Position numbers and translations under genes: made by a program. A stretch of 34,352 bases of DNA from an uncultured Bacteroidales bacterium (GTDB lineage: Bacteria > Bacteroidota > Bacteroidia > Bacteroidales > Bacteroidaceae): the NCBI GenBank assembly GCA_902770725.1, contig CACXUA010000009.1, forward strand, positions 1 through 34,352. The letters are read 5' to 3'. The stretch's first letter is position 1, and the number at the start of each line of letters is the position of its first letter. Below, piece after piece: positions 4,556 to 34,352 of the stretch. The notes under the pieces are model-generated. The model searched no databases. It worked only from the letters and a program-made list of their open reading frames with translations, and had not been told where the DNA came from.

Positions 4556-4665
4556 TCGACACGTTACCCTTTTCAATTCGGCACGTTAAGTTTGCCAATT
4601 CGGCACGTTAAGTTTGTCAAATCGACACGTGAAGTTTAACCACTCGGCATGCCCTTTTAAGGGCT
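4556..4665. repeat. 22-bp period tandem array A, five units
   Basis: Five units start at 4556, 4578, 4600, 4622 and 4644. The core GGCACGTTA or a close variant (GACACGTTA, GACACGTGA, GGCATGCCC) falls at 4558, 4580, 4602, 4624 and 4646, exactly 22 bases apart. Units 2 and 3 are almost identical; the outer ones are degenerate. Unit 4 contains the palindrome CACGTG and unit 5 contains GGCATGCC followed by a small GCCCTT/AAGGGC hairpin (4651-4664). No spacers separate units, so this is not CRISPR. Confidence 0.93.
4651..4664. terminator. Possible weak terminator hairpin after the glycosyltransferase cluster
   Basis: GCCCTT and AAGGGC form a tight palindrome inside the last unit of the 22-bp array. 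It is followed by TTAAACC rather than a clean T tract, so intrinsic termination is uncertain. It is the only hairpin seen between the glycosyltransferase operon and the next gene. Confidence 0.35.
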
Positions 4666-4987
4666 TAAACCGCTATAATTTTACCTCTTAACACAAACAA
4701 TTAATACTATCTTAACTTTGGAGTTCAAAAAGTCCTTTTGTAACTTGCTCATTATCAGCAGAAATTCAATCTAAGCCATTTTCTCGGCTTGGGTGGGCAT
4801 AAGTACCAGAAAGTCGGAAAAACGCTCTTAAAAAGCAATCGAAAGTACAAAATATTGACAAATTTCGCCACTCTAACATAGTCCAACAACTAGACAAATG
4901 TTGAAATACGAATAAAGATTAAACTTCGTAGGATACATTGCTAAGGGAAACCATAGCAGCAAAGGCAATTGGAAATACACAACGAGA
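4666..4987 (+). other. Long leader region before the CotH-like gene
   Basis: About 320 bases without a gene. It holds a probable promoter box at 4713-4720 and a short hairpin, AAGCC/GGCTT, at 4773-4790. No open reading frame, repeat or recognised riboswitch fold is visible. If transcription starts just after 4720 the untranslated leader is about 260 bases, long for this type of gene. Confidence 0.5.
4713..4720 (+). promoter_or_regulatory. Bacteroidetes-type -7 box (TAACTTTG) for the CotH-like gene
   Basis: TAACTTTG matches the TAnnTTTG consensus of the Bacteroidetes primary sigma factor. No clear TTG is seen at the -33 position, so the call rests on one box. Confidence 0.45.
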
Positions 4988-8140: not shown

Positions 8141-10324
8141 TTATTTCCCAAGTTCTGGGACTTGAGGGAAGGTGAGTTTGCTTTTGTCGATGCCGAACTG
8201 TTTGTCGGGGGCAACTTTCATCGTGACGGAATTGCTCGCTGTCCAAGGGCTGTAGGTGACTTTGCCGTCGTATACAATACCGACGCGAAGGGTACGCTGC
8301 TTCTCAGCTGCCTTGCCACCAACTTTGCTAATGCTTACAGTCAGTTTCTTTCCTTCCGTAGCAGCCTGCAGCTTGTACTCGGCAAAGTTGCCCTGCTGAT
8401 AAGCAAAGCCATCGCCATCATCCTCATAGAGACGACCTTCTGCCCTACCCTCTGCATCAGGATTAACAAGCAGAGTAAGGCTGTCGGACTTCATCTCCAC
8501 CGTGTTTTGATAGAGGTTGCCCATCGGGATGACTGAGCCAGGACGCTGAGCCAGATAAGGCTGGAAGCCGTCGTCCTTGTCTTCGAGAGGAAGGATGTCC
8601 CAGTCACCGCTGGGGAGGTTGGCATCGCCTGCCCAACGAGGAATGATAATCAAGTCGCCACCCAACATGAAAGCCTTCTCTTCAGCACGCAAGCTCTTAT
8701 CCTTAGTGTCAGCCATGAAGACGGGACGCATCACGGGCATACCATCCTTGCTGGCCTCCTGGAAGAGCGTATAGACGTATGGCATCAGGCGATAGCGGCG
8801 ATTGATGGCCGTGCGGCAAACGTCGAGGCATTCCTGATCGAAAGCCCAAGGTTCCTGTGCTCGTCCGCCATCAATGCAATGGTTACGGACGAACGGGAAA
8901 TAGACGCCTACTGCCGTCCAGTTGGCGACGAGCTTGCCATTGCTGTCTCCACAGAAGCCACCCATATCGGGACCGTTGAAGGGCTGTCCGCTCAGGCCGA
9001 GCGTAATGGACATCGGGATGGAAGCCATGAACTGTTCCCAATTGGAATAATTGTCGCCCGTCCAAGTTGCCGCATAGCGATGACCGCCGAGGAAATTGCT
9101 TCGGCTCAAGATGAAGGGACGTTTCGTGGGATTCGCCAAGAGCAAGCCCTGACGGCTGGCGCGAACCATGTTCAGTCCATATACGTTATGGTAACGCAGA
9201 TGTGAGTCCTGGCGCAAGCCGTCGCCACCTTTATGCACGTTCGTGATGGGCATTGAGGAGCGAGGTCCCTCGAAGACTGCCGGCTCGTTCATGTCGTTCC
9301 AGATGCCATCCACGCCCTGCGCCATGAAGGGAGGATAGAGCGTGCTCCACCAGGAGCGCACCTCGGGACGCGTGAAGTCGGGGAAGTGGCAGTCGCCCGG
9401 CCATACCTTTCCGACAAAGGGTTTGCCCTCTTCATCAAGAACTGCATAACCATTAGCCATGAGCTGGTCGTCAACCCAATAGCCTTCTTGTGCCTTGACA
9501 CCCGGATCAATCATATAGATGCTCTTGAAGTTCTTGCTGTGCAGGTAGTCGTTGAGTGCCTTGGGCTGCGAGAACTCCTGCGGATGGAAGGTGAATATCT
9601 TGTACTGGTCCATGTAATGGATGTCCATCCAGATGACGTCGCTTGGTATCTTGTGGTAGCGCAAGGTGTCGGCTATCTCCTTGACGCGCGTGTCTGGATG
9701 GTAGCTGTAGCGGCACTGCTGGTAGCCAAGCGACCACAGGGGCGGCATCTCCATGTTGCCAGTAAGGTTCACAAGTTCCTGCATCACCTCCTGAGGCGAG
9801 TTCTTCTCGATGATGACCATACGGAAGGCAGGTCCCAAGCTACGGAACACAATCTCCGTATCGGTAGTCATCGTCGCCTGCCACGTATTATCGGCAATAA
9901 TGCCAAAGCTTGTACCGTCGCTGCGAAGACCGAGAACCCAGGGGTGACTCTGATAAAGATGAGTACCGCCATCCACGCCATAGCAAGGCGTATCGACATT
10001 CCAGAACTCGATGGTCTTGCCGTTACGACGCAAAGGCCCCCAAACCTCGCCGCCGCCATAAAGGTCAGCATCTGCATCCACCTTAATGCGAACGACGCTC
10101 TTGCCATCCTCCGTTGAAAATGCCGGACGAAGTTTCCAGGCAGGACTTACTGCCCCCTGTGGAGCCAGTTCACGAATAAAGATAGGTGACGGACTATGGG
10201 CCGCAGCGTCGTACATAGCGGGATAAAAGACAGCAACATCTGCCGATGCCATATAACTCTGCTGTGCTTGGAGCGCCAGGCCGAAAGCCACAGCAAAAGA
10301 GAAAGCATGAAGTCTAAGTTTCAT
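8141..10324 (-). CDS. Glycoside hydrolase family 31, alpha-glucosidase-like, secreted
   Basis: A 727-residue GH31 enzyme with a signal peptide (MKLRLHAFSFAVAFGLALQAQ). The catalytic nucleophile is D344 within WNDMNEP (342-348), and the acid/base is D424 within TWTGDN. The N-terminal beta-sandwich contains YGGGEVWGPLRRNG and the C-terminal part has a short beta domain (LYEDDGDGF). This motif set is that of alpha-glucosidases acting on terminal alpha-linked glucose. Length is slightly short of typical bacterial members. It is the last gene of a three-gene minus-strand operon, 19 bases after the SusE/F-like gene, and converges on the CotH-like gene. It probably works in the periplasm or at the outer surface on alpha-glucans. 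Confidence 0.93.
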   Translation of the reverse strand: MKLRLHAFSFAVAFGLALQAQQSYMASADVAVFYPAMYDAAAHSPSPIFIRELAPQGAVSPAWKLRPAFSTEDGKSVVRIKVDADADLYGGGEVWGPLRRNGKTIEFWNVDTPCYGVDGGTHLYQSHPWVLGLRSDGTSFGIIADNTWQATMTTDTEIVFRSLGPAFRMVIIEKNSPQEVMQELVNLTGNMEMPPLWSLGYQQCRYSYHPDTRVKEIADTLRYHKIPSDVIWMDIHYMDQYKIFTFHPQEFSQPKALNDYLHSKNFKSIYMIDPGVKAQEGYWVDDQLMANGYAVLDEEGKPFVGKVWPGDCHFPDFTRPEVRSWWSTLYPPFMAQGVDGIWNDMNEPAVFEGPRSSMPITNVHKGGDGLRQDSHLRYHNVYGLNMVRASRQGLLLANPTKRPFILSRSNFLGGHRYAATWTGDNYSNWEQFMASIPMSITLGLSGQPFNGPDMGGFCGDSNGKLVANWTAVGVYFPFVRNHCIDGGRAQEPWAFDQECLDVCRTAINRRYRLMPYVYTLFQEASKDGMPVMRPVFMADTKDKSLRAEEKAFMLGGDLIIIPRWAGDANLPSGDWDILPLEDKDDGFQPYLAQRPGSVIPMGNLYQNTVEMKSDSLTLLVNPDAEGRAEGRLYEDDGDGFAYQQGNFAEYKLQAATEGKKLTVSISKVGGKAAEKQRTLRVGIVYDGKVTYSPWTASNSVTMKVAPDKQFGIDKSKLTFPQVPELGK

Positions 10325-10343
10325 AATTAATAGTGTGTTGAGA

Positions 10344-11261
10344 TTACCTAATTAAGACCTTCTTACCTCCAATGATATTCAAGCCACGATGAGGTTTGCT
10401 CAAGCGCTGACCTGCAAGGTTGTAAATAATGGCGTCGTCGTTCCCAAGTTTCCATTTTTCATTTTCAATTGTTTCGATGCCATCAGGATTTTCCTCTGTC
10501 CCCAGATATTCGCCTTCAATAGTTTCTTTGAAGACATTAACCTTGATGCGATAATAACCGTCTTTATTGATGACCCATTTGTAGTCCTCCGAGCCGTTGT
10601 ACCACAACTGCTTTGCCGTGAGGATGGAGGCGTCTTGGGTGAATGGATGAAGCACCTTAGGGCCCCAGCCGTACTGTCCGTTTATCTTGAAGCGCTTGGG
10701 CTCGACATTAAAAGTGTAATTCTTCAGCAGTCCAATCCACTCGAAAACATTGGGGTCGCTCTGGCTTTGTTCCATTTGCTTGCCAGAGGATATCTGCCAG
10801 CTACCCTCTCGGTCGGTACCCTTTCCTTGCTCGTCCTCGACGCAACCGCCACAAATCCATGCTTCGTACCAACGAACGAAAAGTTCGCCCGTGACCTGCT
10901 TGTTGGTGACGTCAACGGTGAAGCGGTAGTTATCTGCTTCGAAAAGGACTGCCCATTCAGCTCCAACGCTATCGGTTCTGGAGACGTAATCAGCCTTATT
11001 TGTAACAATATCAGTGTCAACAAGTTTAGGGGCATAGTAGCGACTGCCGGTCTTATGCGAATCAGTCGTAGAGATATAGAGATTTCCTGGAAGCAATTTG
11101 CCATGGAACTTGAAGGTATAACGATTGGAGACGTTTGTCGAAAAGCGCGTCAACTCCTGTACCCCGCTAGGAACTGCAGAGCCTCGCACGTATAAACGAA
11201 TCTGAGCAGAGCACTCGATTGAAACCAAGAGCAGTAATATATATATAATGTGTCGTTTCAT
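10344..11261 (-). CDS. SusE/SusF-like secreted carbohydrate-binding protein
   Basis: A 305-residue exported protein. The signal (MKRHIIYILLLLVSIECSAQ) lacks a proper lipobox because Glu precedes the Cys, so it is probably a soluble type I signal rather than a lipoprotein. Two similar modules are visible, about 45-127 and 170-252, each ending in a pattern like YRFTVDVTNKQVTGEL and YRIKVNVFKETIEGEY, as in SusE/SusF starch-binding repeats. The final residues (YNLAGQRL...RGLNIIGGKKV) are a C-terminal tail shared with other exported proteins of this window. Lying between two GH31 genes with gaps of 11 and 19 bases, it likely binds the glucan they digest. No SusC/SusD pair is present nearby. Confidence 0.6.
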   Translation of the reverse strand: MKRHIIYILLLLVSIECSAQIRLYVRGSAVPSGVQELTRFSTNVSNRYTFKFHGKLLPGNLYISTTDSHKTGSRYYAPKLVDTDIVTNKADYVSRTDSVGAEWAVLFEADNYRFTVDVTNKQVTGELFVRWYEAWICGGCVEDEQGKGTDREGSWQISSGKQMEQSQSDPNVFEWIGLLKNYTFNVEPKRFKINGQYGWGPKVLHPFTQDASILTAKQLWYNGSEDYKWVINKDGYYRIKVNVFKETIEGEYLGTEENPDGIETIENEKWKLGNDDAIIYNLAGQRLSKPHRGLNIIGGKKVLIR

Positions 11262-11272
11262 TGCCTTATCTT

Positions 11273-13609
11273 TTATGCCATTTCGCTAAGTGGAACATTG
11301 ATTGTGATGGGTGCAGAGAGGTCGCTCGTGCTAACGGTTATCGTAAGGGTCTGCGTCTCCTCATCATATGAGATGGCCGAATCGTCAATAGGATTACCAT
11401 TGACCGTTATGCCTTCTCGGACGAAAGAGGCAGGCGTTCCGAGGAACTCGACTGTCCATTTCCTTTCGGTCGGCATGCCTTCAAAACTGCCTTTGCGACC
11501 GCCGATGGTCAGGGCAACATTGTCTCCCGTACGGTTCTGCACGAAGGTTGTCATAGCCCAAGCATCTGCCTTATATTCCTGACCTTCGCCTCTATCCTCA
11601 TAGAACTTTCCTGTTCCACTTGCTCCAGGCACGACCTTAAGGATAATCTCGCCCGGATCGTTCACTACAGTACGGCGAACCGGATAGAAAGGAATGATAC
11701 TGCCGGCACGATAGAACACAGGGAACTCGTCGAGCGTATAGGCGCTATAGAACGCTTGGTTGCCACTAAAGAGTCGAGACCTTGTGACGTCCCACCATTT
11801 ACCATTGGGAAACCATATCATACGACCAGAATAGCCATTCACTTGAGGCGTGTAAATGGGAGCGACAAGCATGTCGTTTCCGAACATATACTCGTCCTCG
11901 TAGATATAGGCATTGCTCTCCTCAGGATAATCATAATAGAGTGGACGGTTCATGCCGATGCCCGTATCGTAGGTTTCCCTTGCGGCAGTATAGAGATATG
12001 GGAAGAGGCGATAGCGAAGGCGAACGGCTTCACGAAGCTGCTCGAAGTTGCTATACTTCCAGATGCGGCGTTCCAACTTGCTGTCGTTGGTTGCATGTGT
12101 GCGGAAGATGGGCGTATAGGCACCGAACTGAATCCAGCGAAGCAGGAGTTCCGGGTCGTTATTTCCACCTTGATGACCGCCGAGGTCATGTCCCCAATAA
12201 GCATAGAGGACATTGCTCGCATTGCTTGTGAAGTATATTTCATAACCGAGCATCGACCATGCAGCCCACGTGTCTCCGGAGAAGCAGATGGGGTAACGGT
12301 GTGAGCCGAGGCCTCCCCATCGATGATAGATGACGGGTCTGAGGTTGGGCCTGTTCTTTTGCATATCCTCGAAGAACGTATGGTTGCACCAGAAGGTCTC
12401 GCCCAAACGACTTGAACCATCTGCTGGCGTGTAGCTCTTCTCCTGTCCGTGCTTGCCAACGGTCAAGGCTTGCTGCCAGTCCAGCCACCAAAAGTCGACG
12501 CCTTCTCGCTCGTGAGGTCGGATGACATATCTGAAGAAAGCCTTCATGTAGTCATAGTCCTCGACCTTCCACTTCAGGGTCTGCCTCGTCCTATCCCTCA
12601 AGGCGTTTGCCATTGTCGAATAGTAGTCCTCGTGAGTTCCTACTCCGTCGGATGGGTGCAGGTTAAGGGCGGTCTTCAGGCCATGCTTGTGCAGGGAGTC
12701 GATAAGTTCAATCGGTTTTGGGATAAGGTTCTTGTTCCAGCTCCATCCCGTCCATCCACTTTTGTGCCAATCCATGTCCATGATGAGCACATCCATCGGG
12801 ATGTCATAGTTCTCCACATCTCGAACAATCTGCAGGAACTCGCTTTGGGTATATGCCCAATAGCGGCTGTACCAGTAACCCATAATGTATTTCGGGGGGA
12901 GAGGCACGCGTCCGCCAACCTTTGTATAGTCCTGAATACACTTCTTGTACTCGTGGCCATAACCGAGGAAATACCAGTCGATGGCTGTCGTATCTACTGG
13001 ATTTGCCCACCATGTAATGCCATCTTCCTTAGGTTCGAAGGCATAAGAGGAACTGCCGTCGCCCCTGAGTGTCAAAGGACTCTCGTCGATGATGCTCCAA
13101 CCAGCACGCGAGAGGAGGCCTTTCTCCAGCCTATTTCGAGCATTGTCGCCCCAAGCTGTATCGAGCGTACGACAGGTTCCGAGCAAGTTCATCGAGTCGT
13201 CCTTGCCGGGATACCATATGACGTTCCTTCCATTCAGCTGGAACGTGACCATCAGGTTATCGGGTTTCTTGTCGGCTGGGTTGAATTCGCTACCCTCTTT
13301 GTAACGAAGTTCCAAATCAGATGTCCTGATATAGAGGTAGCCGTCGCTCGTTTCGGTTGTAAACTCAGGCACCGGCAAACGTCGGTTCACGATGCTGAAG
13401 GTCGCTCTGTCCTCGAACTGGGCGGTCGAGCTGTACTGGATGCGAATCATCTGACTCGTGAGAACCGTGAAGCGGGCATTGCCTGAGGTGACAACTGCTG
13501 CAGGGTCTGCCACTGGATTAATCACATCTTCTGCATTCAGGGGCAAGGTTGCCACGAAAAATAAAAGAATGAGAAAATGGAAGAATGAAAGTTTAGGATT
13601 GTTCGTCAT
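11273..13609 (-). CDS. Glycoside hydrolase family 31 (second, divergent type), secreted
   Basis: A 778-residue GH31 enzyme. The frame extends upstream to 13642, but the ATG at 13609 is preferred: the extended part would overlap the promoter -7 box, and starting at MTNNPKLSFFHFLIL gives a normal signal peptide. The nucleophile is D377 in FWWLDWQQ and the acid/base is D446 in FSGDTWAAW; MDMDWHKSGWTGWSWN precedes them. These differ clearly from the partner gene (WNDMNEP), so the two GH31 enzymes belong to different subgroups and probably cut different linkages. The C-terminal part has YEDRGEGQEY, the usual GH31 distal beta domain. It is the first gene of the minus-strand operon with a good promoter upstream. 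Confidence 0.9.
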   Translation of the reverse strand: MTNNPKLSFFHFLILLFFVATLPLNAEDVINPVADPAAVVTSGNARFTVLTSQMIRIQYSSTAQFEDRATFSIVNRRLPVPEFTTETSDGYLYIRTSDLELRYKEGSEFNPADKKPDNLMVTFQLNGRNVIWYPGKDDSMNLLGTCRTLDTAWGDNARNRLEKGLLSRAGWSIIDESPLTLRGDGSSSYAFEPKEDGITWWANPVDTTAIDWYFLGYGHEYKKCIQDYTKVGGRVPLPPKYIMGYWYSRYWAYTQSEFLQIVRDVENYDIPMDVLIMDMDWHKSGWTGWSWNKNLIPKPIELIDSLHKHGLKTALNLHPSDGVGTHEDYYSTMANALRDRTRQTLKWKVEDYDYMKAFFRYVIRPHEREGVDFWWLDWQQALTVGKHGQEKSYTPADGSSRLGETFWCNHTFFEDMQKNRPNLRPVIYHRWGGLGSHRYPICFSGDTWAAWSMLGYEIYFTSNASNVLYAYWGHDLGGHQGGNNDPELLLRWIQFGAYTPIFRTHATNDSKLERRIWKYSNFEQLREAVRLRYRLFPYLYTAARETYDTGIGMNRPLYYDYPEESNAYIYEDEYMFGNDMLVAPIYTPQVNGYSGRMIWFPNGKWWDVTRSRLFSGNQAFYSAYTLDEFPVFYRAGSIIPFYPVRRTVVNDPGEIILKVVPGASGTGKFYEDRGEGQEYKADAWAMTTFVQNRTGDNVALTIGGRKGSFEGMPTERKWTVEFLGTPASFVREGITVNGNPIDDSAISYDEETQTLTITVSTSDLSAPITINVPLSEMA

Positions 13610-13639
13610 AATGGTTATGGACTTTGCTTTATTTGCTTG

Positions 13640-13670
13640 CAAATTTACACTTTTCTTGCCGGACTTACAA
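13640..13670 (-). promoter_or_regulatory. Promoter of the GH31 / SusE-F-like / GH31 operon
   Basis: On the minus strand TTG (13670-13668) and TAAATTTG (13647-13640) are separated by 20 bases, matching the Bacteroidetes -33/-7 arrangement. The ATG at 13609 is about 30 bases downstream of the -7 box. Confidence 0.65.
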
Positions 13671-13740
13671 AAATAACCTGCTGAAAAATGCTATTCTTCA
13701 CGTCATAAGGCCTTGGCGGCTCTATTTTCCGTCGTTTTCT

Positions 13741-13771
13741 TTGCAGGTTTCAGAGGAAATTCGTAACTTTG
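13741..13771 (+). promoter_or_regulatory. Promoter of the GH43 gene
   Basis: TTG (13741-13743) and TAACTTTG (13764-13771) have a 20-base spacer, the same as the divergent promoter on the other strand 70 bases away. The pair implies shared regulation of the GH31 operon and the GH43 gene from the 13610-13807 gap (inference). Confidence 0.65.
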
Positions 13772-13807
13772 TGCGGCTTTATATAATATAATAAGGTATA
13801 AGAAATC

Positions 13808-14779
13808 ATGTTCCGCACACTTTCACTTTTGCTGGCTGTTCTGTGGTCGAGTTCAGCTATGACACAGAACTTCACAAATCCCGTTTGGCGAGGAAACTGG
13901 CCAGACCCGACCGTTTGGCTTGGCGAAGACGGTCGCTATCACTGCCTCGCCACCAATCCCACACGCTCTCTTGTGAGCGACGACCTGTTTAATTGGGAGA
14001 TGTCGAACGTTGCTCCCATCGACATCGAGTCTTGGGGAAAGATGCAAGCCATCAGTCGAAACTATTGGGCCCCAGACGTGGCGACCGTCGCAGGCAAGCG
14101 AAATCTGTATTTGACACTTTACAACAGTGCGGAAGACAGCAATATCGGGGTCTTCCAGGAATATGCTCCATGTCAGTTCCAGTTTGTCGGCATCATTACC
14201 AGCAGTCGAGAAACGGGCATCCACGACACGATAGATCCTGAGGTGGTAACCGACCCGAAGACGGGCAAAGTGTGGCTCTTCTTCGGTTCCGTAGGCGGCA
14301 TCCACCGTATTGAACTCGAAAAGGACGGACTTTCCCTGAAGGAAGGAGCGAAGTACGAGCATGTGGCTGGCCTGAAGGTTGAGGAGAATCCCAACCGCTC
14401 GAAGGTCTTCGAGGGCTCGTATCTGCATCAGCACGGCAAGTACTGGTACCTCTTCGTCAGCTCCGGCTTCTTCGGAGACCACACCTATCAGTTGAAAGTG
14501 GGTCGCGCAAAGAAGCTGACCGACGACTTTGTCGATAGAGAAAGTAATCTCATGAAGGAAGGGTTCGCCACCACAGTACTTCATAGCGACGAAGGCGACC
14601 ACTTCTACGGACCCGGTCACTGCGGAGAGATATTCAAGGCAAAAGACGGAAACGAGTATATCTTCTACCATTGCCACGTAGCGGGAAGCCGCAGACAAGG
14701 CAGCCGACCACTCTTCCTTTCCCAGATCAAATGGGATAAAGAAGGCTGGCCATACGTCGAAGGAGGAAAGCCACAATGA
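13808..14779 (+). CDS. Glycoside hydrolase family 43, secreted
   Basis: A 323-residue five-bladed beta-propeller enzyme with a signal peptide (MFRTLSLLLAVLWSSSAMTQ). The three GH43 acidic residues are placed as expected: base D33 in NWPDPTV, pKa modulator D143 in TIDPEVV, and acid E202 in FEGSYL. WAPDV at 87-91 is also typical. GH43 members here are usually arabinan- or xylan-side-chain-acting (alpha-L-arabinofuranosidase, endo-arabinanase, beta-xylosidase); specificity cannot be fixed. It diverges from the GH31 operon. There is no extra carbohydrate-binding module. A 22-bp array begins within about 16 bases of the stop. Confidence 0.9.
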   Translation: MFRTLSLLLAVLWSSSAMTQNFTNPVWRGNWPDPTVWLGEDGRYHCLATNPTRSLVSDDLFNWEMSNVAPIDIESWGKMQAISRNYWAPDVATVAGKRNLYLTLYNSAEDSNIGVFQEYAPCQFQFVGIITSSRETGIHDTIDPEVVTDPKTGKVWLFFGSVGGIHRIELEKDGLSLKEGAKYEHVAGLKVEENPNRSKVFEGSYLHQHGKYWYLFVSSGFFGDHTYQLKVGRAKKLTDDFVDRESNLMKEGFATTVLHSDEGDHFYGPGHCGEIFKAKDGNEYIFYHCHVAGSRRQGSRPLFLSQIKWDKEGWPYVEGGKPQ

Positions 14780-14794
14780 GGCATCCACAAACGC

Positions 14795-14882
14795 GGCACG
14801 CCGAATGAGCCAACGCGGCACGCCAAGTTGAGAGATGTGGCACGCCGAATTGGTCAACGTGGCACGCCGCGTTGAAAGACGC
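14795..14882. repeat. 22-bp period tandem array B, four clear units
   Basis: GGCACGCC occurs at 14795, 14817, 14839 and 14861, exactly 22 bases apart each time. The second half of the units varies but often ends in CAACG. A preceding half-unit (14773-14794) shares that ending and overlaps the last codons of the GH43 gene. AACGTGGC/GCCGCGTT at 14856-14873 can fold as a hairpin with one G-T pair. Confidence 0.95.
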
Positions 14883-14944
14883 GACAAAACAGGAACATTA
14901 AACAACTGAACAATAAATAATAATTCGTTAATTCATAAACTACC

Positions 14945-16330
14945 ATGACACTCATCAAATCCATCTCTGGCATCAGAGGAACCATCGGAGGAAGAGCAGG
15001 TGATACGCTCAACCCCCTCGACATCGTGAAGTTCACATCAGCCTACGCAACTCTCATTCGCCGCACTACTACGGTAAAGAGCAACAAGATAGTGGTCGGC
15101 AGGGATGCCCGCATCTCCGGACCCATGGTGAAGAATGTGGTCTGCGGCACACTCATGGGAATGGGCTTCGACGTTGTCAACATCGGACTCGCCACGACGC
15201 CCACCACCGAAATCGCAGTCACAATGGAAGGCGCTTGCGGTGGCATCATCATCACAGCCAGCCATAATCCACGCATGTGGAACGCCTTGAAGTTGCTCAA
15301 CTCTCGTGGCGAGTTCCTCAACAAAGAGGAAGGCAACGAAGTGCTCCGTATTGCAGAAGCCGAAGACTTTGAGTATGCCGACGTAGATCACCTCGGGTCT
15401 TACCGCGAGGACAACACCTACGACCAGAAGCATATTGACCTCGTGCTCGGACTCGACCTTGTGGATGTGGAAGCCATCAAGAAGGCGAACTTCCGCGTGG
15501 CATTTGACAGCGTCAACAGCGTCGGTGGAGTCATCCTACCCAAACTGCTCGAGCAACTCGGTGTGAAGACCGTCACGGGCCTCTTCACCGAACCGACTGG
15601 CGATTTCCAGCACAACCCCGAACCGCTCGAAAAGAACCTGGCTGACATCAAAGCCCTGATGCAGAAGGGCCAGCACGATATCGCATTTGTCGTTGACCCC
15701 GATGTGGACCGCCTTGCCCTCTTCTGTGAAGACGGCACGATGTATGGCGAGGAATATACACTCGTCACGGTGGCCGACTACATCCTGCAGCACACCCCAG
15801 GCAATACAGTCAGCAATCTCAGCTCGACCCGCGCTCTGCGTGATGTCACTCGAAAGTATGGATGCGAGTACAATGCTGCCGCCGTTGGTGAGGTCAATGT
15901 GGTGACGAAGATGAAAGAAACCAATGCCGTCATCGGCGGCGAAGGCAACGGCGGCGTCATCTACCCTGCAGCCCACTACGGTCGCGACGCTCTTGTAGGC
16001 ATCGCCCTCATCCTCACCTATCTGGCAAAGAAGGGAATGACGACCAGCCAACTGCGTGCAACCTATCCTCCCTACTTCATCGCCAAGAATCGCATCGACC
16101 TGACTCCTGAGACGGACGTAGATGCAATCCTCGCCAAGGTCAAGGAAATGTACTCCAGCGAAGAGGTAAACGACATCGATGGGGTCAAGATAGACTTCCC
16201 CGACAAGTGGGTACATCTGCGAAAGAGCAATACGGAGCCCATCATTCGCGTCTATAGCGAAGCCAGCACGATGGAGGACGCCGACGCAATCGGCAAGAAG
16301 ATTATGGACGTCGTCTACAGCATGGTATAA
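14945..16330 (+). CDS. glmM: Phosphoglucosamine mutase / phosphomannomutase family
   Basis: A 461-residue alpha-D-phosphohexomutase. The phosphoserine is S106 in TASHNPRMW, the magnesium loop is DPDVDRL (251-257), the sugar loop is GEGNGG, and the phosphate-binding RKSNTEP lies at 426-432. The GlmM reaction turns glucosamine-6-phosphate into glucosamine-1-phosphate for UDP-GlcNAc synthesis. The family also includes phosphomanno/phosphoglucomutases, so the symbol is the usual Bacteroidales assignment rather than proven; the neighbour nagA, 37 bases downstream, favours amino-sugar metabolism. No TAnnTTTG box was found directly upstream; the preceding gap holds the 22-bp array and an A/T-rich stretch. 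Confidence 0.85.
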   Translation: MTLIKSISGIRGTIGGRAGDTLNPLDIVKFTSAYATLIRRTTTVKSNKIVVGRDARISGPMVKNVVCGTLMGMGFDVVNIGLATTPTTEIAVTMEGACGGIIITASHNPRMWNALKLLNSRGEFLNKEEGNEVLRIAEAEDFEYADVDHLGSYREDNTYDQKHIDLVLGLDLVDVEAIKKANFRVAFDSVNSVGGVILPKLLEQLGVKTVTGLFTEPTGDFQHNPEPLEKNLADIKALMQKGQHDIAFVVDPDVDRLALFCEDGTMYGEEYTLVTVADYILQHTPGNTVSNLSSTRALRDVTRKYGCEYNAAAVGEVNVVTKMKETNAVIGGEGNGGVIYPAAHYGRDALVGIALILTYLAKKGMTTSQLRATYPPYFIAKNRIDLTPETDVDAILAKVKEMYSSEEVNDIDGVKIDFPDKWVHLRKSNTEPIIRVYSEASTMEDADAIGKKIMDVVYSMV

Positions 16331-16331
16331 T

Positions 16332-16359
16332 AACTATCAACTACAAACTATCAACTATA
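16332..16359 (+). repeat. Short 14-bp direct repeat between glmM and nagA
   Basis: AACTATCAACTACA and AACTATCAACTATA lie head to tail at 16332-16345 and 16346-16359, followed by a third partial copy AACTTTC. They fill almost the whole gap, directly before the nagA start. The period is 14, distinct from the 22-bp arrays. Confidence 0.8.
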
Positions 16360-16367
16360 AACTTTCT

Positions 16368-17531
16368 ATGTTAACACAAATCATTAATGGTAAGATCCTG
16401 ACGCCGCAGGGATGGCTCAAGAACGGCAGCGTCATCCTTAGAGACAACAAGATTCTGGAAGTAACAAACTGCGATTTGGCAGTCATCGGAGCAGACCTCA
16501 TCGATGCGAAAGGCATGTGCGTCGTGCCCGGATTCATCGATATGCACGTTCACGGAGGCGGCGGAAGAGACTTTCAGGAAGGTACTCCCGAAGCCTTCAA
16601 GACTGCTGTGGAAGCTCACGTGAAGCATGGCACGACCAGCATCTTCCCGACACTCAGCAGCAGCACAGTGCCCATGATTGAGAAGGCCGTACAGACTTGC
16701 ACCAAACTTATGCACGAGAAGGATTCGCCCATCCTCGGTCTTCACCTCGAAGGGCACTACCTCAATCCGACAAAAGCCGGTGCACAACAACCGGGCTGGA
16801 TTAAGAACCCTGACCCCAACGAGTACATTCCCATCGTAGAAAAGTCGGAATGTCTTGCACGTTGGGACGCTGCTCCGGAACTTCCGGGTGCTTTGCAGTT
16901 CGGACGTTACTGCGCAGAGAAGGGAATCTTGCCAAGTATAGCGCATACCAACGCTGAATACGACGACGTGAAAGCCGCATTCGAAGCAGGCTTCACCCAC
17001 GTCACGCACTTCTACAACGCCATGCCTGGCTTCCACAACAAGATGGGGTACAAGTACGAAGGCACAGTCGAGAGCGTCTATCTCATTGACGACATGACCA
17101 TAGAATGTATTGCCGACGGCATACATGTCCCGCCCACAATCCTCCGCATGGCCTATAAGATTAAGGGCGTTGAACGCATGGCCGTCATCACGGACGCCCT
17201 TGCAGTGGCTGCCGCAGGAGCAGACGCGAAGGCTTTCGACGACCGTGTCATCATCGAGGACGGTGTCTGCAAACTTGCCGACCGCAGTGCTCTGGCTGGC
17301 TCCATCGCAACGACAGACCGACTGGTCCGCACTCTTGTGCAACAAGCGGAAGTGCCTCTGGAGGATGCCGTCCGCATGGCAAGCGAAACGCCGGCACACA
17401 TCATGGGCGTCTTCGGCAGGAAGGGAGCATTGGCTCGCGGCAAGGATGCCGACGTGCTCATCCTCGACGAGAAGCTCAACGTGCGTTGCGTTTGGCAGAT
17501 GGGCAAGATAATCGAGAACACACTCTTCTAA
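16368..17531 (+). CDS. nagA: N-acetylglucosamine-6-phosphate deacetylase
   Basis: A 387-residue amidohydrolase. Metal-site features are HVH (H60, H62) in DMHVHGGG, E128 in LHLEGHYLN, H193 in IAHTNAE and H214 in THFYNAMPG; the catalytic aspartate is D276 in VITDALA. It removes acetate from GlcNAc-6-phosphate, giving glucosamine-6-phosphate, the substrate of GlmM encoded just upstream. Length is normal for NagA. The 37-base gap and shared strand suggest cotranscription with glmM. It is cytoplasmic, with no signal peptide. Confidence 0.93.
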   Translation: MLTQIINGKILTPQGWLKNGSVILRDNKILEVTNCDLAVIGADLIDAKGMCVVPGFIDMHVHGGGGRDFQEGTPEAFKTAVEAHVKHGTTSIFPTLSSSTVPMIEKAVQTCTKLMHEKDSPILGLHLEGHYLNPTKAGAQQPGWIKNPDPNEYIPIVEKSECLARWDAAPELPGALQFGRYCAEKGILPSIAHTNAEYDDVKAAFEAGFTHVTHFYNAMPGFHNKMGYKYEGTVESVYLIDDMTIECIADGIHVPPTILRMAYKIKGVERMAVITDALAVAAAGADAKAFDDRVIIEDGVCKLADRSALAGSIATTDRLVRTLVQQAEVPLEDAVRMASETPAHIMGVFGRKGALARGKDADVLILDEKLNVRCVWQMGKIIENTLF

Positions 17532-17537
17532 ACATTC

Positions 17538-18419
17538 ATGAATCCATTCCGTAGAATCTGGCAGAAAGCCATGAATAATGATGCGTTGCGAGAGAAGCTT
17601 CGCATCATTATCTTCCAAAGCGACACACCACTCGGCAAGGCATTCGACATTGCATTGCTGTGTTGCATCGTCGCAAGCATACTGATTGTCATAGTGGAAA
17701 GCCTGCAGGCTATGCCGCCGACGGCTAAGTTGGTGTTCACTATACTGGAGTATGTCTTCACATTCTTCTTTACGCTCGAGTACCTTTGCCGTCTTTACTG
17801 TTCCGACAAGCCACGCGATTATGCCCTCAGCTTCTTTGGAATCATTGACTTGCTGAGCACTCTGCCACTCTACATCGGATGGATATTCGGCCCGGTTCGC
17901 TACCTTATGGTGGTTCGAACCTTCCGTCTCATTCGCGTCTTCCGCGTGTTCAAGCTTTTCAGCTTCCTGCAGGAGGGTGACCTCCTGATGCGTTCCCTCA
18001 TCATCAGCGCCCCGAAGATTGGCGTCTTCTTCCTCTTCATGGTCATCATGGTCATCAGCATGGGAACCCTCATGTATATGGTGGAAGGCAACATTCCGGG
18101 CACTCCGTTCACCGACATCCCGACCAGCATCTACTGGGCCGTCGTAACGATGACGACGGTGGGCTACGGCGACATTGCTCCGGCAACATCCCTCGGGAGA
18201 ATCCTTTGCATGATAGTCATGCTGATGGGCTACACCATCATGGCTGTTCCGACAGGTATCGTCAGCGCACAAATGGTGTATGATCATAAAGCGAAACGCA
18301 AGGAAGAGACCTGCCCAGAGTGTGGATCGCCCCTACCCTCCCACGCACATTACTGTCCTTTCTGTGGTTTGAAGCAAGAGAAAAAGTATATTCCAGCACA
18401 GGATGACACAATAAAATGA
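17538..18419 (+). CDS. Voltage-gated potassium-channel-like ion transporter with C-terminal zinc ribbon
   Basis: A 293-residue membrane protein with six probable transmembrane segments. The S4-like segment RYLMVVRTFRLIRVFRVFK (121-139) carries regularly spaced arginines, and the selectivity filter TVGYGD is at 207-212, followed by a last helix. After residue 255 comes a soluble tail with two Cys pairs, CPEC (259-262) and CPFC (273-276), a zinc-ribbon pattern that may sense or bind metal (inference). It begins 6 bases after nagA stops, so it is probably in the same transcript although functionally unrelated. The first base after its stop codon begins a 22-bp array. Confidence 0.9.
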   Translation: MNPFRRIWQKAMNNDALREKLRIIIFQSDTPLGKAFDIALLCCIVASILIVIVESLQAMPPTAKLVFTILEYVFTFFFTLEYLCRLYCSDKPRDYALSFFGIIDLLSTLPLYIGWIFGPVRYLMVVRTFRLIRVFRVFKLFSFLQEGDLLMRSLIISAPKIGVFFLFMVIMVISMGTLMYMVEGNIPGTPFTDIPTSIYWAVVTMTTVGYGDIAPATSLGRILCMIVMLMGYTIMAVPTGIVSAQMVYDHKAKRKEETCPECGSPLPSHAHYCPFCGLKQEKKYIPAQDDTIK

Positions 18420-18485: not shown

Positions 18486-18504
18486 TAAACTAAACTCGTC
18501 AAGA

Positions 18505-20853: not shown

Positions 20854-20855
20854 TT

Positions 20856-21968
20856 ATGAAAGCAAAACTCTTAATGGCACTCCTGTGCCTATGCTTCCTC
20901 GCTTGCAATTCTGGCAAGGAGGCCGAGATGAAGACAAGCTCCGTGACGAACCCCATCCCATTGAAGTTCGGCGACCCCTTCCTGCTGCATGCCAGCGACG
21001 GGCGTTACTACATGTACGGCACCTCGCTGGGCGACGGCTTCGAAGCCTTTGTGAGCGACGACCTCATCGACTGGGACTCGTGCGGGCAAGTGTATAAAGG
21101 CGGCGCGCCAGACCAGTGGAACCTCGATTGCTTCTGGGCTCCGGAGGTTTACGAGCGTGGTGGCAAGTACTATCTCTTCTATAGTTCCAACTACAGAAAG
21201 AACCCCACGAACGAAGGCGAGAACTTCAAGATTGGCGTGGCCGTCAGCGATTCTCCGGCAGGCCCCTTCAAGGACCTCTACGACCGTCCTGTCTTCAATC
21301 CACCCTATCCCATCATCGATGCCAACGTTTACTTCGACGACAAGACCGACAAGTGCTACCTCTACTTCAGTCGTTGCTGCTATAAGCATGCGGTGGAGAG
21401 TGAGATAGCCGACAGTTTGCGCAAGGCCGGCAACTTCCAGGAGATAGAGGAGAGCTGGGTCTATGGCGTCGAGTTGAAGCCCGACTTCAGTGGCGTCATC
21501 GGAGAGCCCGTGCTGCTGCTCTGTCCGCCTACAGAACTTGAAGACAAGCAGAGCGAATGGGAGAGCCGCAGCGCCACGCATGGTGAGGTGAACCGCCGTT
21601 GGACGGAAGGCAGCTACCTCTTCCGCGAAGGCGACACATATTATATAATGTATAGCGCGAACCATTATGGCGGACAGTACTATGCCGTAGGTTACGCCAC
21701 AGCCGACAACCCGCTCGGTCCCTTCACAAAGGCCGAGAACAATCCCGTGCTGCAGGAGAACGTCAGTCGTGGCGGCAAGGTGATGGGCACAGGCCACAAC
21801 ATGGTGATTACGATGCCCGATGGCAATCGCTATTGCGTCTATCATGGTCGCATGACAAGCAATCCCGGCGAACGCGTCGTCCTGATGGACAAGATCAACA
21901 TCGACGAGAATGGCGTCCTCACAGTCGAGGGTCCTACGACTGCAGCGCAAGAGATTGTTTATCAATAA
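20856..21968 (+). CDS. Glycoside hydrolase family 43 lipoprotein
   Basis: A 370-residue exported enzyme. The signal ends in the lipobox FLAC with C17 as the lipidated residue, so it is membrane-anchored, probably facing the periplasm or surface. GH43 acidic residues are D40 (KFGDPFLL), D155 (IIDANVYFD) and E251 (WTEGSYLF); WAPEVY is present as in other members. Insertions around residues 170-215 and 220-245 make it longer than the GH43 gene at 13808. Likely a beta-xylosidase or alpha-L-arabinofuranosidase; not resolvable. It follows the carbonic-anhydrase-like gene by 2 bases, suggesting cotranscription. A hairpin-forming 22-bp array follows its stop. Confidence 0.9.
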   Translation: MKAKLLMALLCLCFLACNSGKEAEMKTSSVTNPIPLKFGDPFLLHASDGRYYMYGTSLGDGFEAFVSDDLIDWDSCGQVYKGGAPDQWNLDCFWAPEVYERGGKYYLFYSSNYRKNPTNEGENFKIGVAVSDSPAGPFKDLYDRPVFNPPYPIIDANVYFDDKTDKCYLYFSRCCYKHAVESEIADSLRKAGNFQEIEESWVYGVELKPDFSGVIGEPVLLLCPPTELEDKQSEWESRSATHGEVNRRWTEGSYLFREGDTYYIMYSANHYGGQYYAVGYATADNPLGPFTKAENNPVLQENVSRGGKVMGTGHNMVITMPDGNRYCVYHGRMTSNPGERVVLMDKINIDENGVLTVEGPTTAAQEIVYQ

Positions 21969-22009
21969 GTCATGACAAACGGCTGATGCCAACCAAAGGC
22001 ATCGGCAAA

Positions 22010-22097
22010 CGCCCTATAGGGGAATGAGCAACGCCCTATAGAGGAATGAGCAACGCCCTATAGGGGAATGGTCACTCCCCTATAGGGCGTTGAAACG
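22010..22097. repeat. 22-bp period tandem array D, last unit inverted
   Basis: Units start at 22010, 22032, 22054 and 22076. TATAG falls at 22015, 22037, 22059 and 22081, exactly 22 bases apart. The first three units are near identical (ACGCCCTATAGGGGAATG); the fourth is the reverse complement but keeps the phase through its CCCTATAGGG palindrome. A weaker preceding unit (21988-22009) shares the GGCAAA ending. Confidence 0.95.
22051..22092. terminator. Bidirectional hairpin between convergent GH43 lipoprotein gene and ugd
   Basis: The arms 22051-22070 and 22073-22092 are complementary over 20 bases with one mismatch and a 2-base loop. The position between two converging genes fits a bidirectional terminator, though neither side has a long T tract. 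Confidence 0.6.
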
Positions 22098-22114
22098 CTT
22101 AATATGTCACCTGC

Positions 22115-23458
22115 TTAGTCGCAGCCAAAGATGTCGCGCGTATAGACCTTGTCCTTCACATCATCGAGGCAAGCTTCATAGCGGTTGGCAACAATTGCCT
22201 GCGACAGTTTCTTGAAGGTCTTGAGGTCATTCACCACACGAGAACCGAAGAAGCTCTCGCCGTCCTGCAGCGTAGGCTCATAAATGATGACTTCTGCTCC
22301 CTTTGCTTTGATGCGTTTCATGATGCCCTGAATGGCCGACTGACGGAAGTTGTCGCTGCCAGCCTTCATGGTCAGGCGGAAGACGCCAATCACGCAATGC
22401 TGCTCGCTTTCGCTGTTCCATTGCGCATTCTCGCTGTAATAGCCCGCCATGCGAAGCACTGCGTCGGCAATGTAGTCCTTGCGGGTGCGGTTACTCTCCA
22501 CGATGGCCGTCATCATTTGCTGCGGCACATCCTGATAGTTGGCCAAGAGCTGCTTCGTATCCTTCGGCAGGCAGTAGCCTCCGTAGCCAAATGAAGGATT
22601 GTTGTAATGCGTCCCAATTCGCGGATCAAGGCCAACGCCTTTGATGATGGCTTTGGGGTCGAGGCCCTTCACCTCAGCATACGTATCGAGTTCATTGAAG
22701 TAGCTGACGCGCAGGGCCAAATATGTGTTGGCAAACAACTTGACCGCCTCGGCCTCCTTCATACCCATGAAGAGAGTGTCGATGTTCTCCTTCTCGGCTC
22801 CTTCCTGCAGGAGCTTGGCAAAAGTCTCGGCAAACTGCTTGGCATCAGGATTGCCGATAGCAGTAATGGCAGCATTCTCCTCGGTGAAGTTACTATCGTT
22901 TATCTCGATGATTTTGGGATAACCTACGATGATGCGAGAGGGGTAAAGGTTGTCGTAGAGCGCTTTACTCTCGCGAAGGAACTCGGGCGAGAAGAGCAGG
23001 TTGAACTTCTTTCCCTTCAGTTCAGGCTTGTAGAGGAACTTCAAGGCATACTTCGCATAAAGGCTTCTGCAATATCCTACGGGGATTGTACTCTTGATGA
23101 CCATCACAGCATCGGGATTGACGCTGATGACCATATCGATGACATCCTCGATGTGATGCGTATCGAAGAAGTTCTTGACGGGATCATAGTTGGTCGGCGC
23201 AGCTATGACGATGAAGTCTGCATCCTTGTATGCTGCCTTGCCATCAAGAGTCGCTGTAAGTCGCAGATCCTTCTCTGCCAAGTATTTCTCGATGTATTCG
23301 TCCTGGATTGGCGAGATGCGTTTGTTGATCTTCTCCACCTTTTCAGGAATAACGTCCACAGCTGTCACTTCATGATGTTGGCTGAGTAAAGTGGCAATCG
23401 ACAGACCGACATAACCCGTGCCTGCAACGGCTATTTTAAGTTCACTGAAGTCTCGCAT
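22115..23458 (-). CDS. ugd: UDP-glucose 6-dehydrogenase
   Basis: A 447-residue nucleotide-sugar dehydrogenase that oxidises UDP-glucose to UDP-glucuronate, a precursor for capsule and exopolysaccharide. The NAD-binding GTGYVG is at 13-18, the STIPVGY and [20 protein letters not shown] segments are typical of Ugd, and the catalytic cysteine is C296 in [10 protein letters not shown] longer frame reaches 23494, but that would read through the promoter -7 box at 23484-23491, so the ATG at 23458 is chosen. Compared with E. coli Ugd (about 388 residues) it is longer, with extra sequence before and after the Cys. It stands alone, divergent from the delta' operon. Confidence 0.92.
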
Positions 23459-29475: not shown

Positions 29476-29563
29476 ACTCCAGTACCACCATGGGAGAATT
29501 GCAGTCCTCCCATAAGAAAACTCCAGTCCCACCATGGTGGGACTGGAGTCCTCCTATTGAGGT
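29476..29563. repeat. 22-bp period tandem array E, four units with palindromes
   Basis: Units start at 29476, 29498, 29520 and 29542. AGT is at 29481, 29503, 29525 and 29547, each 22 bases apart, within CCAGT, GCAGT, CCAGT and GGAGT. Odd units resemble ACTCCAGTNCCACCATGG; the second and fourth share AGTCCTCC. The array is 22 bases downstream of the DUF4965 gene stop. Confidence 0.92.
29520..29549. terminator. Perfect 30-bp palindrome after the DUF4965-type gene
   Basis: The 15 bases 29520-29534 are the exact reverse complement of 29535-29549, centred on CCATGG. In RNA this gives a long GC-rich stem downstream of the minus-strand gene ending at 29586. A T tract is lacking directly after it, so it may act as terminator or stabiliser. 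Confidence 0.6.
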
Positions 29564-29585
29564 ACGATAAAAAGGACTGGCCTAT

Positions 29586-32973: not shown

Positions 32974-34206
32974 ATGACGAAATACGACATTCCTGTGCTG
33001 CTGCTCACAGGTTACCTGGGTAGCGGCAAGACAACCCTCCTCAACAGAATCCTCACGAACCGTCGCGGCATCCGATTCGCCGTGATAGTCAACGACATAG
33101 GCGAGGTCAACATCGACGCCGACCTCATCCAGAAGGGCGGCATCGTTGGGGGTCAGGACGACAGCCTGGTCGCCCTGCAGAACGGATGCATCTGTTGCAC
33201 GCTCAAGATGGACTTGGTACAGCAGCTCTACGACATCATCGCCCTCAAGAAGTTCGACTACATCGTCATCGAAGCCAGCGGCATTTGCGAGCCGGAGCCC
33301 ATTGCCCAGACGATTTGCGAGATGGCCCGAATGGCTCCGGAAGTCACGAAGAATGGCGTCCCATACGTCGATTGCATCGTCACCGTAGTGGACGCTCTCA
33401 GGCTGAAAGACGAGTTCAATTGCGGCTCGGACCTCACCAAGAAGGACATCGACGAAGAGGACATCGAAAACCTCGTCATTCAGCAGATAGAGTTCTGCAA
33501 CATCGTCTTGCTCAACAAGGCTGCCGACGTCGAGCCACACGAACTGGAGCGCATACGCCAGATCGTGCGTGGCATACAGAAGAAGGCACAGATCATCGAG
33601 TGCAACTATGGTGATGTGGAGCTCGACAAGCTGCTGAACACTAACCTCTTCGACTATGAGAAGGTGGCGACAAGCGCAACATGGATTGCCGAGTTGGAAC
33701 AGCATCACGACGATGATGACGATGATGACGACGACGAGCATGAGCACGAACATCATCACCACGAACACGAAGAGCACCATCACGACCACGAACATCACCA
33801 TCATCACCATCATGATCACGATGAGGGAGAAGCCGAGGAGTACGGCATCGGCACGTTTGTCTATTACCGTCGAAAGCCCATGCGACTCAGCGAGTTCGAC
33901 CAATTCGTGGCTCGACTCTGGCCAAAAGGCATCATTCGGGCAAAGGGAATCTGCTACTTCAAAGGCGAAGAAGACGTCTGCTACCTGTTCGAGCAAGCCG
34001 GCAAGCAGGTCAAGTTGCAGAACATCGGGCAATGGTATGCCACGATGCCCGCAGCCGAGCTGGAGATGATGAAGCAGCGCGACCCCAACCTCCTCCGCGA
34101 TTGGGACGAAACCTACGGCGACAGGATGCAGAAACTGGTCTTCATCGGTCAGCATCTCGACAAGGAAGCCATCACCACTCTGCTCGACGCTTGTCTCGTC
34201 GAATAA
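32974..34206 (+). CDS. CobW/COG0523 family GTP-binding metal chaperone
   Basis: A 410-residue G3E GTPase. Walker A is GYLGSGKTT (13-21), the metal-binding CxCC is GCICC (C72, C74, C75), EASGICEP follows Walker B, and LLNKAADV is the NKxD-like guanine motif. Between the GTPase and C-terminal CobW domains a low-complexity loop (about 244-286) is made of Asp runs, then His and Glu, typical of zinc-handling COG0523 proteins and likely a metal store. Family members supply zinc to client proteins, often under Zur control; no Zur box was recognised here. It stands alone, divergent from the DUF4965 gene. Its stop codon runs straight into a 22-bp array. Confidence 0.9.
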   Translation: MTKYDIPVLLLTGYLGSGKTTLLNRILTNRRGIRFAVIVNDIGEVNIDADLIQKGGIVGGQDDSLVALQNGCICCTLKMDLVQQLYDIIALKKFDYIVIEASGICEPEPIAQTICEMARMAPEVTKNGVPYVDCIVTVVDALRLKDEFNCGSDLTKKDIDEEDIENLVIQQIEFCNIVLLNKAADVEPHELERIRQIVRGIQKKAQIIECNYGDVELDKLLNTNLFDYEKVATSATWIAELEQHHDDDDDDDDDEHEHEHHHHEHEEHHHDHEHHHHHHHDHDEGEAEEYGIGTFVYYRRKPMRLSEFDQFVARLWPKGIIRAKGICYFKGEEDVCYLFEQAGKQVKLQNIGQWYATMPAAELEMMKQRDPNLLRDWDETYGDRMQKLVFIGQHLDKEAITTLLDACLVE

Positions 34207-34352
34207 CGCCCTCTCACTCAACTTATCACGCCCATTCAGCCGACCAGCCACGCCTGGTCGGCCAACTTAACGTGCCACGTTCGTTAAATGGTCATGAACA
34301 TTTAATTAAATGGTCATGAATATTTAATTAAATAGTCATGAATATTTAATCA
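34206..34352. repeat. 22-bp period tandem array F, at least six full units, open at the window end
   Basis: The phase mark falls at 34206, 34228, 34250 (ACGCC), 34272 (GTGCC), 34294, 34316 and 34338 (ATGAA), each 22 bases apart. The first mark uses the last base of the CobW stop codon. Units 5-7 are nearly identical (ATGAAYATTTAATTAAAT); units 1-3 share only ACGCC. Unit 4 is intermediate. The array runs off the window. Confidence 0.92.
34239..34262. terminator. Hairpin within the array after the CobW-type gene
   Basis: GCCGACCAG and CTGGTCGGC form a 9-bp perfect stem with a 6-base loop, 33 bases after the stop. It spans two neighbouring 22-bp units. No T tract follows. Confidence 0.55.

Follow-up and report, generated by a model that had tools for sequence, protein, structure and literature searches.

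Often palindromic intergenic arrays with a fixed 22-bp pitch and changing unit sequences in an uncultured Bacteroidales genome and its relatives

Intergenic tandem arrays in the genome of an uncultured Bacteroidales bacterium (Bacteroidaceae; assembly GCA_902770725.1) keep, with few exceptions, one period of 22 bp while the sequence of their units, many of them palindromic, differs within the genome and is replaced between close species. The stretch analysed, hereafter the window, comprises the 34,352 nucleotides of contig CACXUA010000009.1 (positions 1 to 34,352), that is, contig C9 of a 134-contig, 2.26-Mb genome that is 80.6% complete; the closest matches to its GlmM protein come from rumen and gut assemblies assigned to Bacteroidaceae, Bacteroidales or Prevotellaceae. 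A first-pass annotation of the window had described six intergenic arrays with an exact 22-bp period, and all six were found again by Tandem Repeats Finder and by self-match. Its suggestion of a common ruler underlying changing sequences was also supported, in that one period runs through the sampled genome, the same period occurs with other palindromes in relatives (a period of mainly 23 bp in one related group), and cores have been replaced in place. The annotation had missed the frequency of palindromic units and the fact that each species has a leading palindrome of its own.

Results

Genes were called with our own hexamer script and arrays with a self-match score, at a threshold of 14, 16, 17, 18 or 20 depending on the analysis. 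In 823 kb containing 393 intergenic regions of at least 20 bp, the lag spectrum had the sharp peak at 22, with dissimilar units, that the first-pass annotation had anticipated: 100 segments at lag 22 and 77 at 44, versus 3 at 21 and none at 23. Shuffled intergenic sequence gave no segment at any lag from 10 to 60, which argues against chance or composition as the source of the peak. Period-22 segments were mostly intergenic (113 of 120), and in 434 kb the DNA not covered by open reading frames had an identity of 0.3455 at lag 22, compared with values near 0.266 at most lags and a further peak at 44. When all DNA was considered, 1.19 Mb of the genome of the window yielded 148 segments at 22, 110 at 44, 10 at 21 and none at 23, and 0.61 Mb of a close relative (G005) yielded 71, 50, 14 and 1, respectively; a 50-kb E. 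coli control contained nothing at period 22. The 161 mostly intergenic arrays had a median of 4.0 units, with at least three units in 84% of them, and arrays made up about a tenth of the sampled noncoding DNA (18.4 of 138.7 kb, a total that includes an 11-bp margin on either side of each array). Behind 22 and 44, the intergenic period seen most often was 14 (units near 7 bp; 19 segments in the 823 kb), represented at 16332-16363 of the window and in other gaps by repeats of the kind AACTATCAACTACA or TTCATAGTTCATAG.

Comparison of orthologous gaps revealed gain, loss and replacement of units, as the first-pass annotation had proposed looking for. Genome G005 matches the window at 90-97% identity in three blocks over 8142-22600, and 22 of the 148 arrays could be placed in its 0.61 Mb. 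Eight of these 22 have the same units in G005, whereas three have another core (C9:14788, C3:45733 and C7:51058, the last being also much longer) and two have no array at the counterpart position. At one further array (C25:16074), G005 contains a half-converted unit composed of the halves CCCCTA and CGTTAAG, and the switch point of this hybrid lies at a dyad centre. Eight rows at seven loci differ from G005 by 22, 44 or ~66 bp. Conversely, none of 49 array-free gaps carries an array in G005. Array positions are mostly kept between species, cores are replaced, and units are gained or lost in 22-bp steps. The gap before glmM (C9:14788) illustrates the replacement: the window has CGGCACGCCG units there and G005 has CCCTATAGGG units, G008 carries units of the CTGCAG and GTTAAC types, both G012 and G024 have GGTTAACC, and G013 and L029 lack such an array. 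Unit-by-unit orthology of the spacers in one replaced array placed the true order among the best 2 of 24, a result that is suggestive only. At C7:51058, the gap is 184 bp longer in G005 and CCCTATAGGG units flank a recurring hairpin, GCGAGTGGAAACTCGCTCCCC, that is also found at C1:42571 and C2:50624 of the genome of the window.

The spread of single cores was followed by counting exact pairs at 22-bp spacing in 81 genomes of the genus, themselves a sample of a larger group. Counts from both strands were added, so that two symmetric cores forming a pair may be counted twice, and reversed-pattern controls gave at most 8 per genome. Pairs of CCCTATAG numbered 23+17 in the genome of the window and 137+132 in G005, with matches in 7 of the 81 genomes. 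GGTTAACC pairs occurred 105 and 112 times in two other species (G012 and G024, respectively), 17 times in G093 and once in G092, and were absent from the other 77 genomes, that of the window included. GGCACGYY pairs, with matches in 20 of the 81, numbered 71+80 in the genome of the window, 143+88 in G020 and 27+14 in G005. Among close species the leading palindrome is species-specific, and the density of period-22 segments is alike despite the different cores (168 in 1.19 Mb of the genome of the window, 79 in 0.61 Mb of G005). Counted singly, CCCTATAG was concentrated in arrays, with 61 copies there, 10 in other intergenic DNA and 7 in 1.05 Mb of coding sequence (reversed control, 14); in G005, 98 copies lay in arrays and 4 in coding sequence.

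Units commonly consist of a 7-bp arm, a 4-bp centre, a second 7-bp arm and a 4-bp spacer, and many are palindromic, such as TTGCACATACATGTATGTGCAA, TTAAATGGTCATGACCATTTAA, CCCTATAGGG and GGCGGCCGCC. Several palindrome families (CACG/CGTG, CCCTATAGGG, CATG and others) occupy one grid: 82 of 109 arrays had at least three CRYG or TATA centres in register, with CGTG (147), CACG (116), CATG (47), TATA (29) and CGCG (9) as centres. The CACG/CGTG family, to which most of the arrays of this genome with a clear centre belong, has the symmetric consensus CMAACTTGGCACGTYAAGTTTG, with AA at -9/-8 and TT at +8/+9 at frequencies of 0.85-0.89 each; by eye, the alignment columns show that the spacer, too, holds a point of symmetry, TTKGCMAA, at a distance of 11 bp from the centre. 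The condition under which the first-pass annotation would have given up its reading, namely that the arrays are copies of one known repeat family, was found only in part, since most clear-centred arrays are CACG/CGTG but no known family matched. Dyad symmetry exceeded that of column permutations at p<0.05 in 29 of 55 arrays, these being the ones of at least 62 bp among 64 (nine shorter arrays were left out). Pairing of the outermost arms was weak (3.70 of 7 positions within the same array, 2.80 between different arrays).

The pitch itself was strict. RRCRYGYY centres in 1.19 Mb were spaced 22 bp apart in 229 cases, 21 bp in 3 and 23 bp in 1, so that 229 of the 233 spacings of 21-23 bp are 22, the pattern of direct repeats at fixed pitch found in iterons; the corresponding counts in G005 were 68, 4 and 1. 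CCTATAGG centres showed 14 spacings of 22 and 2 of 44, with no other spacing below 80 (30 and 3 in G005). A long region with few called genes at 12569-16964 of L011 (contig C3 of the same genome) contains clustered 22-bp arrays whose units, of TTCGCACCAAGTGTTC and other types, mostly have little or no dyad symmetry, and units of this type were also seen in related genomes (L034, 2834; L036, 2943; L038, 1366).

The 22-bp pitch was also found in relatives, in a scan of 110 loci (1.81 Mb; threshold 20; 19 periods; coding DNA unmasked) that skipped, uncounted, any array whose length fell below two periods plus 18 bp. Results showed 33 arrays at period 22 and 10 at 23, with at most 2 at every other period; arrays dropped for a shorter internal period were 1 of 34 at 22, 1 of 11 at 23 and 7 of 8 at 16. 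Dyad symmetry was significant (p<0.05) in 17 of 33 arrays at 22, 5 of 10 at 23 and 1 of 2 at 41. The palindromes of other genera have no obvious sequence in common with those of the window and keep the same pitch, as exemplified by GTACTCTGCGCAGAGTAC in a Paraprevotella assembly (L081) and by GGTACC-centred units in a Phocaeicola plebeius assembly (L108). In a group whose GlmM is 83-84% identical and whose arrays are mainly of period 23, GTTACNNNNGTAAC pairs were present in 3 of 8 genomes; with the gap left free between 6 and 12, 31, 23 and 4 pairs were found, and the spacing was 23 in every match listed. Two 20-kb stretches of a 23-bp genome, picked regardless of arrays, contained one array at 23, a 20-kb stretch of Phocaeicola vulgatus contained one weak array at 22, and a small sample of other families of the order (~242 kb) contained one array at 22 and three at 23. 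A second recurring element of period 23, resembling GCGTACCCCTCGGCTACGGC and accompanied by a nearby reverse complement, was seen at L102 1655-1721 and L260 1852-1914, and a similar one at L096 13981-14050.

With respect to genes, the gaps of at least 80 bp in the 823 kb carried arrays in 23 of 48 cases where the flanking genes converge, in 57 of 153 where they lie in tandem and in 14 of 63 where they diverge. Of the 62 arrays in tandem (same-strand) gaps, 48 were closer to the stop codon than to the next start; 36 lay no more than 60 bp from the stop, and 14 no more than 60 bp from the start that follows. The placement after stop codons noted in the first-pass annotation is real, but densities per kb of intergenic DNA differ less between the classes (1.75 convergent, 1.16 tandem and 1.04 divergent, for 25, 62 and 22 arrays), and for this reason avoidance of the promoter regions before starts may account for part of the 3′ bias.

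To what extent the symmetry belongs to DNA or to RNA was examined in 197 units from the arrays in tandem gaps among the 82 with several CRYG or TATA centres. The sense strand showed no preference between CGTG (83) and CACG (74), and its arm mismatches were GT in 94 cases and AC in 138, the opposite of wobble tolerance; the arrays thus lack both the G-U tolerance and the sense-strand preference expected of an RNA element. Predicted RNA folding was strong for arrays in convergent gaps, with z of -4.05 and -3.69 on the two strands, and less so in tandem gaps, with z of -2.84 (sense) and -2.62 (antisense); array-free convergent 3′ ends had a mean z of -3.23. A hairpin followed by a T-tract was found at 51 of 103 array-bearing 3′ ends, the best one lying before the array in 23 cases, at or inside it in 18 and after it in 10; since the scan picked up such a hairpin in 27 of 132 divergent 5′ controls as well, part of these hits are false. 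Between the window and G005, the array at 29476-29565 differs by paired substitutions (C-G to A-T, A-T to G-C) that leave a perfect palindrome of 28 bp intact, which fits DNA, RNA or templated repair alike. Given the lack of strand bias and of G-U tolerance, DNA is a likelier substrate than RNA, and the symmetry is more probably maintained at the DNA level.

The six arrays of the window, to which no strand is assigned, all have the 22-bp period; spans below are from the looser self-match, with the Tandem Repeats Finder call in brackets. Array 1, at 4556-4651 (4555-4637), has ~4.4 units with a CACGTT/CACGTG centre and begins 46 bp past a plus-strand stop codon. Array 2, at 14788-14886 (14790-14869, with 14795-14879 additionally called at period 44), is the one before glmM and has four units with the core CGGCACGCCG. 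Array 3, at 18419-18486 (18428-18486), has ~3 units with a TCGCGA centre and GCAATTGC in between; its G005 counterpart is 44 bp shorter. Array 4, at 22008-22087 (22008-22070), lies between convergent genes and is made of CCCTATAGGG units, the final one with the opposite arm order, and array 5, at 29476-29565 (29476-29535), consists of palindromes of CTCCAGTNCCACC type past the stop of a minus-strand gene. Array 6, at 34195-34352 (34284-34350), is the most informative of the six; it has ~7 units and runs to the contig end, changing from CACGCC-type units to CATGAA-type ones at the last without a shift of the 22-bp grid. The first-pass annotation needed correction in that the units are not all unrelated: they do fall into several families, but a CACG/CGTG centre is common to array 1, array 2 and the initial part of array 6. 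The distance from the stop codon is 46, 8, -1, 39 and 20 bases for arrays 1 to 5, respectively, and array 6 overlaps the stop at 34206. No match to the window was found in Rfam. The gene ending at that stop (32974-34206), presumably similar to a COG0523-type metal GTPase, contains an in-frame acidic and histidine-rich repeat at 33707-33813.

Discussion

We favour, at somewhat less than an even chance, the reading that the arrays are double-stranded DNA sites, homogenised by slippage and ectopic copying, which form a lattice of fixed pitch on which a dimeric DNA-binding protein would sit. In its favour are the strictness of the pitch, the dyad symmetry of about half of the arrays and of the main-family consensus, the likeness of the two strands, the concentration of CCCTATAG in arrays, the similar density of period-22 segments in two species with different cores, and the two palindromes on a single grid in array 6. 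A dimer, or a small family of such proteins, would bind each palindrome with a base preference that is loose or quickly changing; neighbouring dimers would touch, so that contacts between proteins would set the pitch, while slippage would alter the number of units and ectopic copying between arrays would spread the currently favoured palindrome. As to their role, arrays might mark nucleoid or supercoil domains between genes. Protein and ectopic copying are invoked because slippage, although it accounts for the number of units and its 22-bp steps, leaves unexplained both the single pitch of different palindromes and the genome-wide spread of one core. A protein spaced at two helical turns was one of three mechanisms put forward in the first-pass annotation and is the best of them, although unproven: 22 bp fits two turns roughly and 23 bp less well. 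Taken more broadly, Bacteroidaceae might possess a chromosome-wide system whose trans-acting factor determines nothing but the pitch (22 bp, and mainly 23 in one group) of palindromic intergenic lattices, the favoured palindrome being rewritten genome-wide within the divergence of sister species. This proposal is tentative, and the presence of 22-bp arrays in the 23-bp group makes it slightly less likely; if true, the system would be the bacterial counterpart of satellite or hotspot motifs that evolve fast together with their reader protein.

Several observations weigh against a protein lattice. The binding protein is postulated, and neither 22 nor 23 bp is an exact multiple of the 10.5-bp turn. 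Dyad symmetry was non-significant in 26 of 55 arrays of this genome and in 16 of 33 period-22 arrays of relatives, and half-site complementarity, measured in the 82 of 109 arrays selected for three or more centres of the CRYG or TATA kind, was 4.20 of 7 within a unit, little above the 3.85 between units of the same array (random, 2.97). A single specific binder is hard to reconcile with the coexistence of several palindromes in a genome and with a leading palindrome that changes from one close species to another; besides, GGCACGCC, with 85 copies in arrays, also occurs 58 times in coding sequence versus 14 for the reversed control. The mainly-23-bp group has 10 arrays at 23 and 3 at 22 (14 loci, 260 kb). 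Finally, predicted intrinsic curvature was not raised (132 arrays, mean z -0.37, wedge parameters), which tells against curvature as a basis of the arrays.

A rather unlikely alternative, with some real chance of being right, is a selfish or passive palindromic family of the REP kind, in which one ancient 22-bp array passed on its pitch and species-specific cores arose through concerted evolution and copying by some mobiliser. The species-specific palindrome counts, the hybrid unit at C25:16074, mixed arrays such as C8:6441, the 2 of 22 arrays lacking a G005 counterpart and the arm and spacer vocabulary common, by eye, to the CACG and CCCTATAGGG families (TTKGCMAA, AACG/CGTT) all speak for such a family, and REP and BIME-2 elements are described as short extragenic palindromes in high copy that form regular tandem composites, with supposed roles in termination or supercoiling and with RAYT (Y1) transposases (PMC2817692, PMC3733652). 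The present arrays resemble them in being small palindromes (dyad symmetry being significant in about half), of high copy and mostly extragenic (113 of 120), but differ in their 22 (or 23) bp pitch across different palindromes and in positions that are mostly stable between species. The Y1/REP transposase (PF01797), positive in 5 of 14 control genomes, was found in none of six genomes that are 62-89% complete, which tells against REP elements spread by a Y1 transposase. No REP end tag (GTAG/CGTC) was seen at the ends of the main-family consensus, where no formal search was made. Furthermore, none of the 49 array-free gaps has an array in G005, other genera keep the pitch with palindromes of no obvious common sequence, and the pitches of 21 and 23 into which a neutral family would be expected to drift are rare. 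Repeats written by a reverse transcriptase were set aside likewise, PF00078 being present in one of the six genomes (G012) and in neither the genome of the window nor G005; the copying enzyme suggested in the first-pass annotation thus has no candidate in the two families tested.

RNA structures at 3′ ends, that is, tandem hairpins (7-bp stem, 4-nt loop) serving as transcription terminators or as protection for mRNA ends, bidirectionally between convergent genes, are an improbable explanation. The position of arrays near stop codons and in convergent gaps, the strong fold scores and the palindrome preserved at 29476 speak for them, and the arrays are like intrinsic terminators in being inverted repeats often located past stop codons. 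However, array-free convergent 3′ ends are structured too, and the arrays score alike on both strands. Selection for RNA hairpins is weakened by the lack of strand bias and of G-U tolerance on the sense strand, and a role as terminators alone by the 23 of 51 cases in which the hairpin with T-tract precedes the array. In strand symmetry, absence of wobble tolerance and frequent location beyond a terminator-like hairpin the arrays are unlike intrinsic terminators; divergent gaps carry arrays as well (14 of 63), and an RNA hairpin does not demand an exact 22-nt spacing. The 3′-end RNA fold of the first-pass annotation is weakened accordingly, strong fold scores notwithstanding.

Replication mechanics alone, in which hairpins in single-stranded DNA provoke slippage and template switching and the polymerase sets the step at 22 (or 23) bases, so that palindromes are perfected and units multiplied without selection, seems to us decidedly doubtful. 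It would produce palindromes, unit-number changes of 22, 44 or ~66 bp, paired changes such as those at 29476 and a hybrid unit that switches at the dyad centre, but by itself it leaves unexplained why the same new palindrome appears at many loci of one species; other periods do occur, but few, and E. coli had nothing at 22 in 50 kb. In Neisseriaceae, DNA uptake sequences form dialects, genome-wide motifs that differ between related species, and a dialect of this kind, to which a short species-specific motif and the excess of GGCACGCC in coding sequence would correspond, is very improbable here, as CCCTATAG is almost confined to arrays rather than spread over genes and gaps (a verdict that is weaker for GGCACGCC) and fixed tandem pitch is, to our knowledge, no feature of uptake sequences.

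Replication initiator sites of plasmids, the iterons, are spaced ~22 bp apart, and the arrays are like them in having tandem units about two helical turns apart, but are chromosome-wide between genes, often palindromic and free to change in sequence. The nearest description that we found may be a relative in another genus: the BrickBuilt minisatellite MITE (miniature inverted-repeat transposable element) of Porphyromonas gingivalis consists of intergenic tandem repeats of 23 nt at 19 loci of one genome, 22-nt repeats being also mentioned for strain W83 (PMC4596501). Judged by that description, the two are alike in their intergenic tandem repeats of 22-23 nt. BrickBuilt is presented there as one unit family with a leader, a tail and terminal inverted repeats (PMC4596501), unlike the several palindrome families on one pitch seen here, in which no mobile ends were noticed by eye, no formal search having been made. 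As to insertion at new sites, expected of such a MITE, the 49 array-free gaps without an array in G005 and the 2 of 22 arrays without a counterpart there point in different directions. No description of fixed 22-bp palindromic arrays was found in the literature covered, which left out most subscription journals. The combination of fixed pitch and free sequence, having no described counterpart that we found, suggests with moderate confidence only a new kind of element, to which the bare label of intergenic minisatellite would fit too.

Even on the plainest reading, about a tenth of the sampled noncoding DNA belongs to one repeat class located preferentially after genes. We know of no bacterial description of DNA organisation that is read by spacing and symmetry; if a factor does read these rather than sequence, gut and rumen genera would possess such a kind of organisation. 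Concerted evolution, and the coevolution of such a reader with its sites, would then be open to direct testing, since close species differ in their leading motif.

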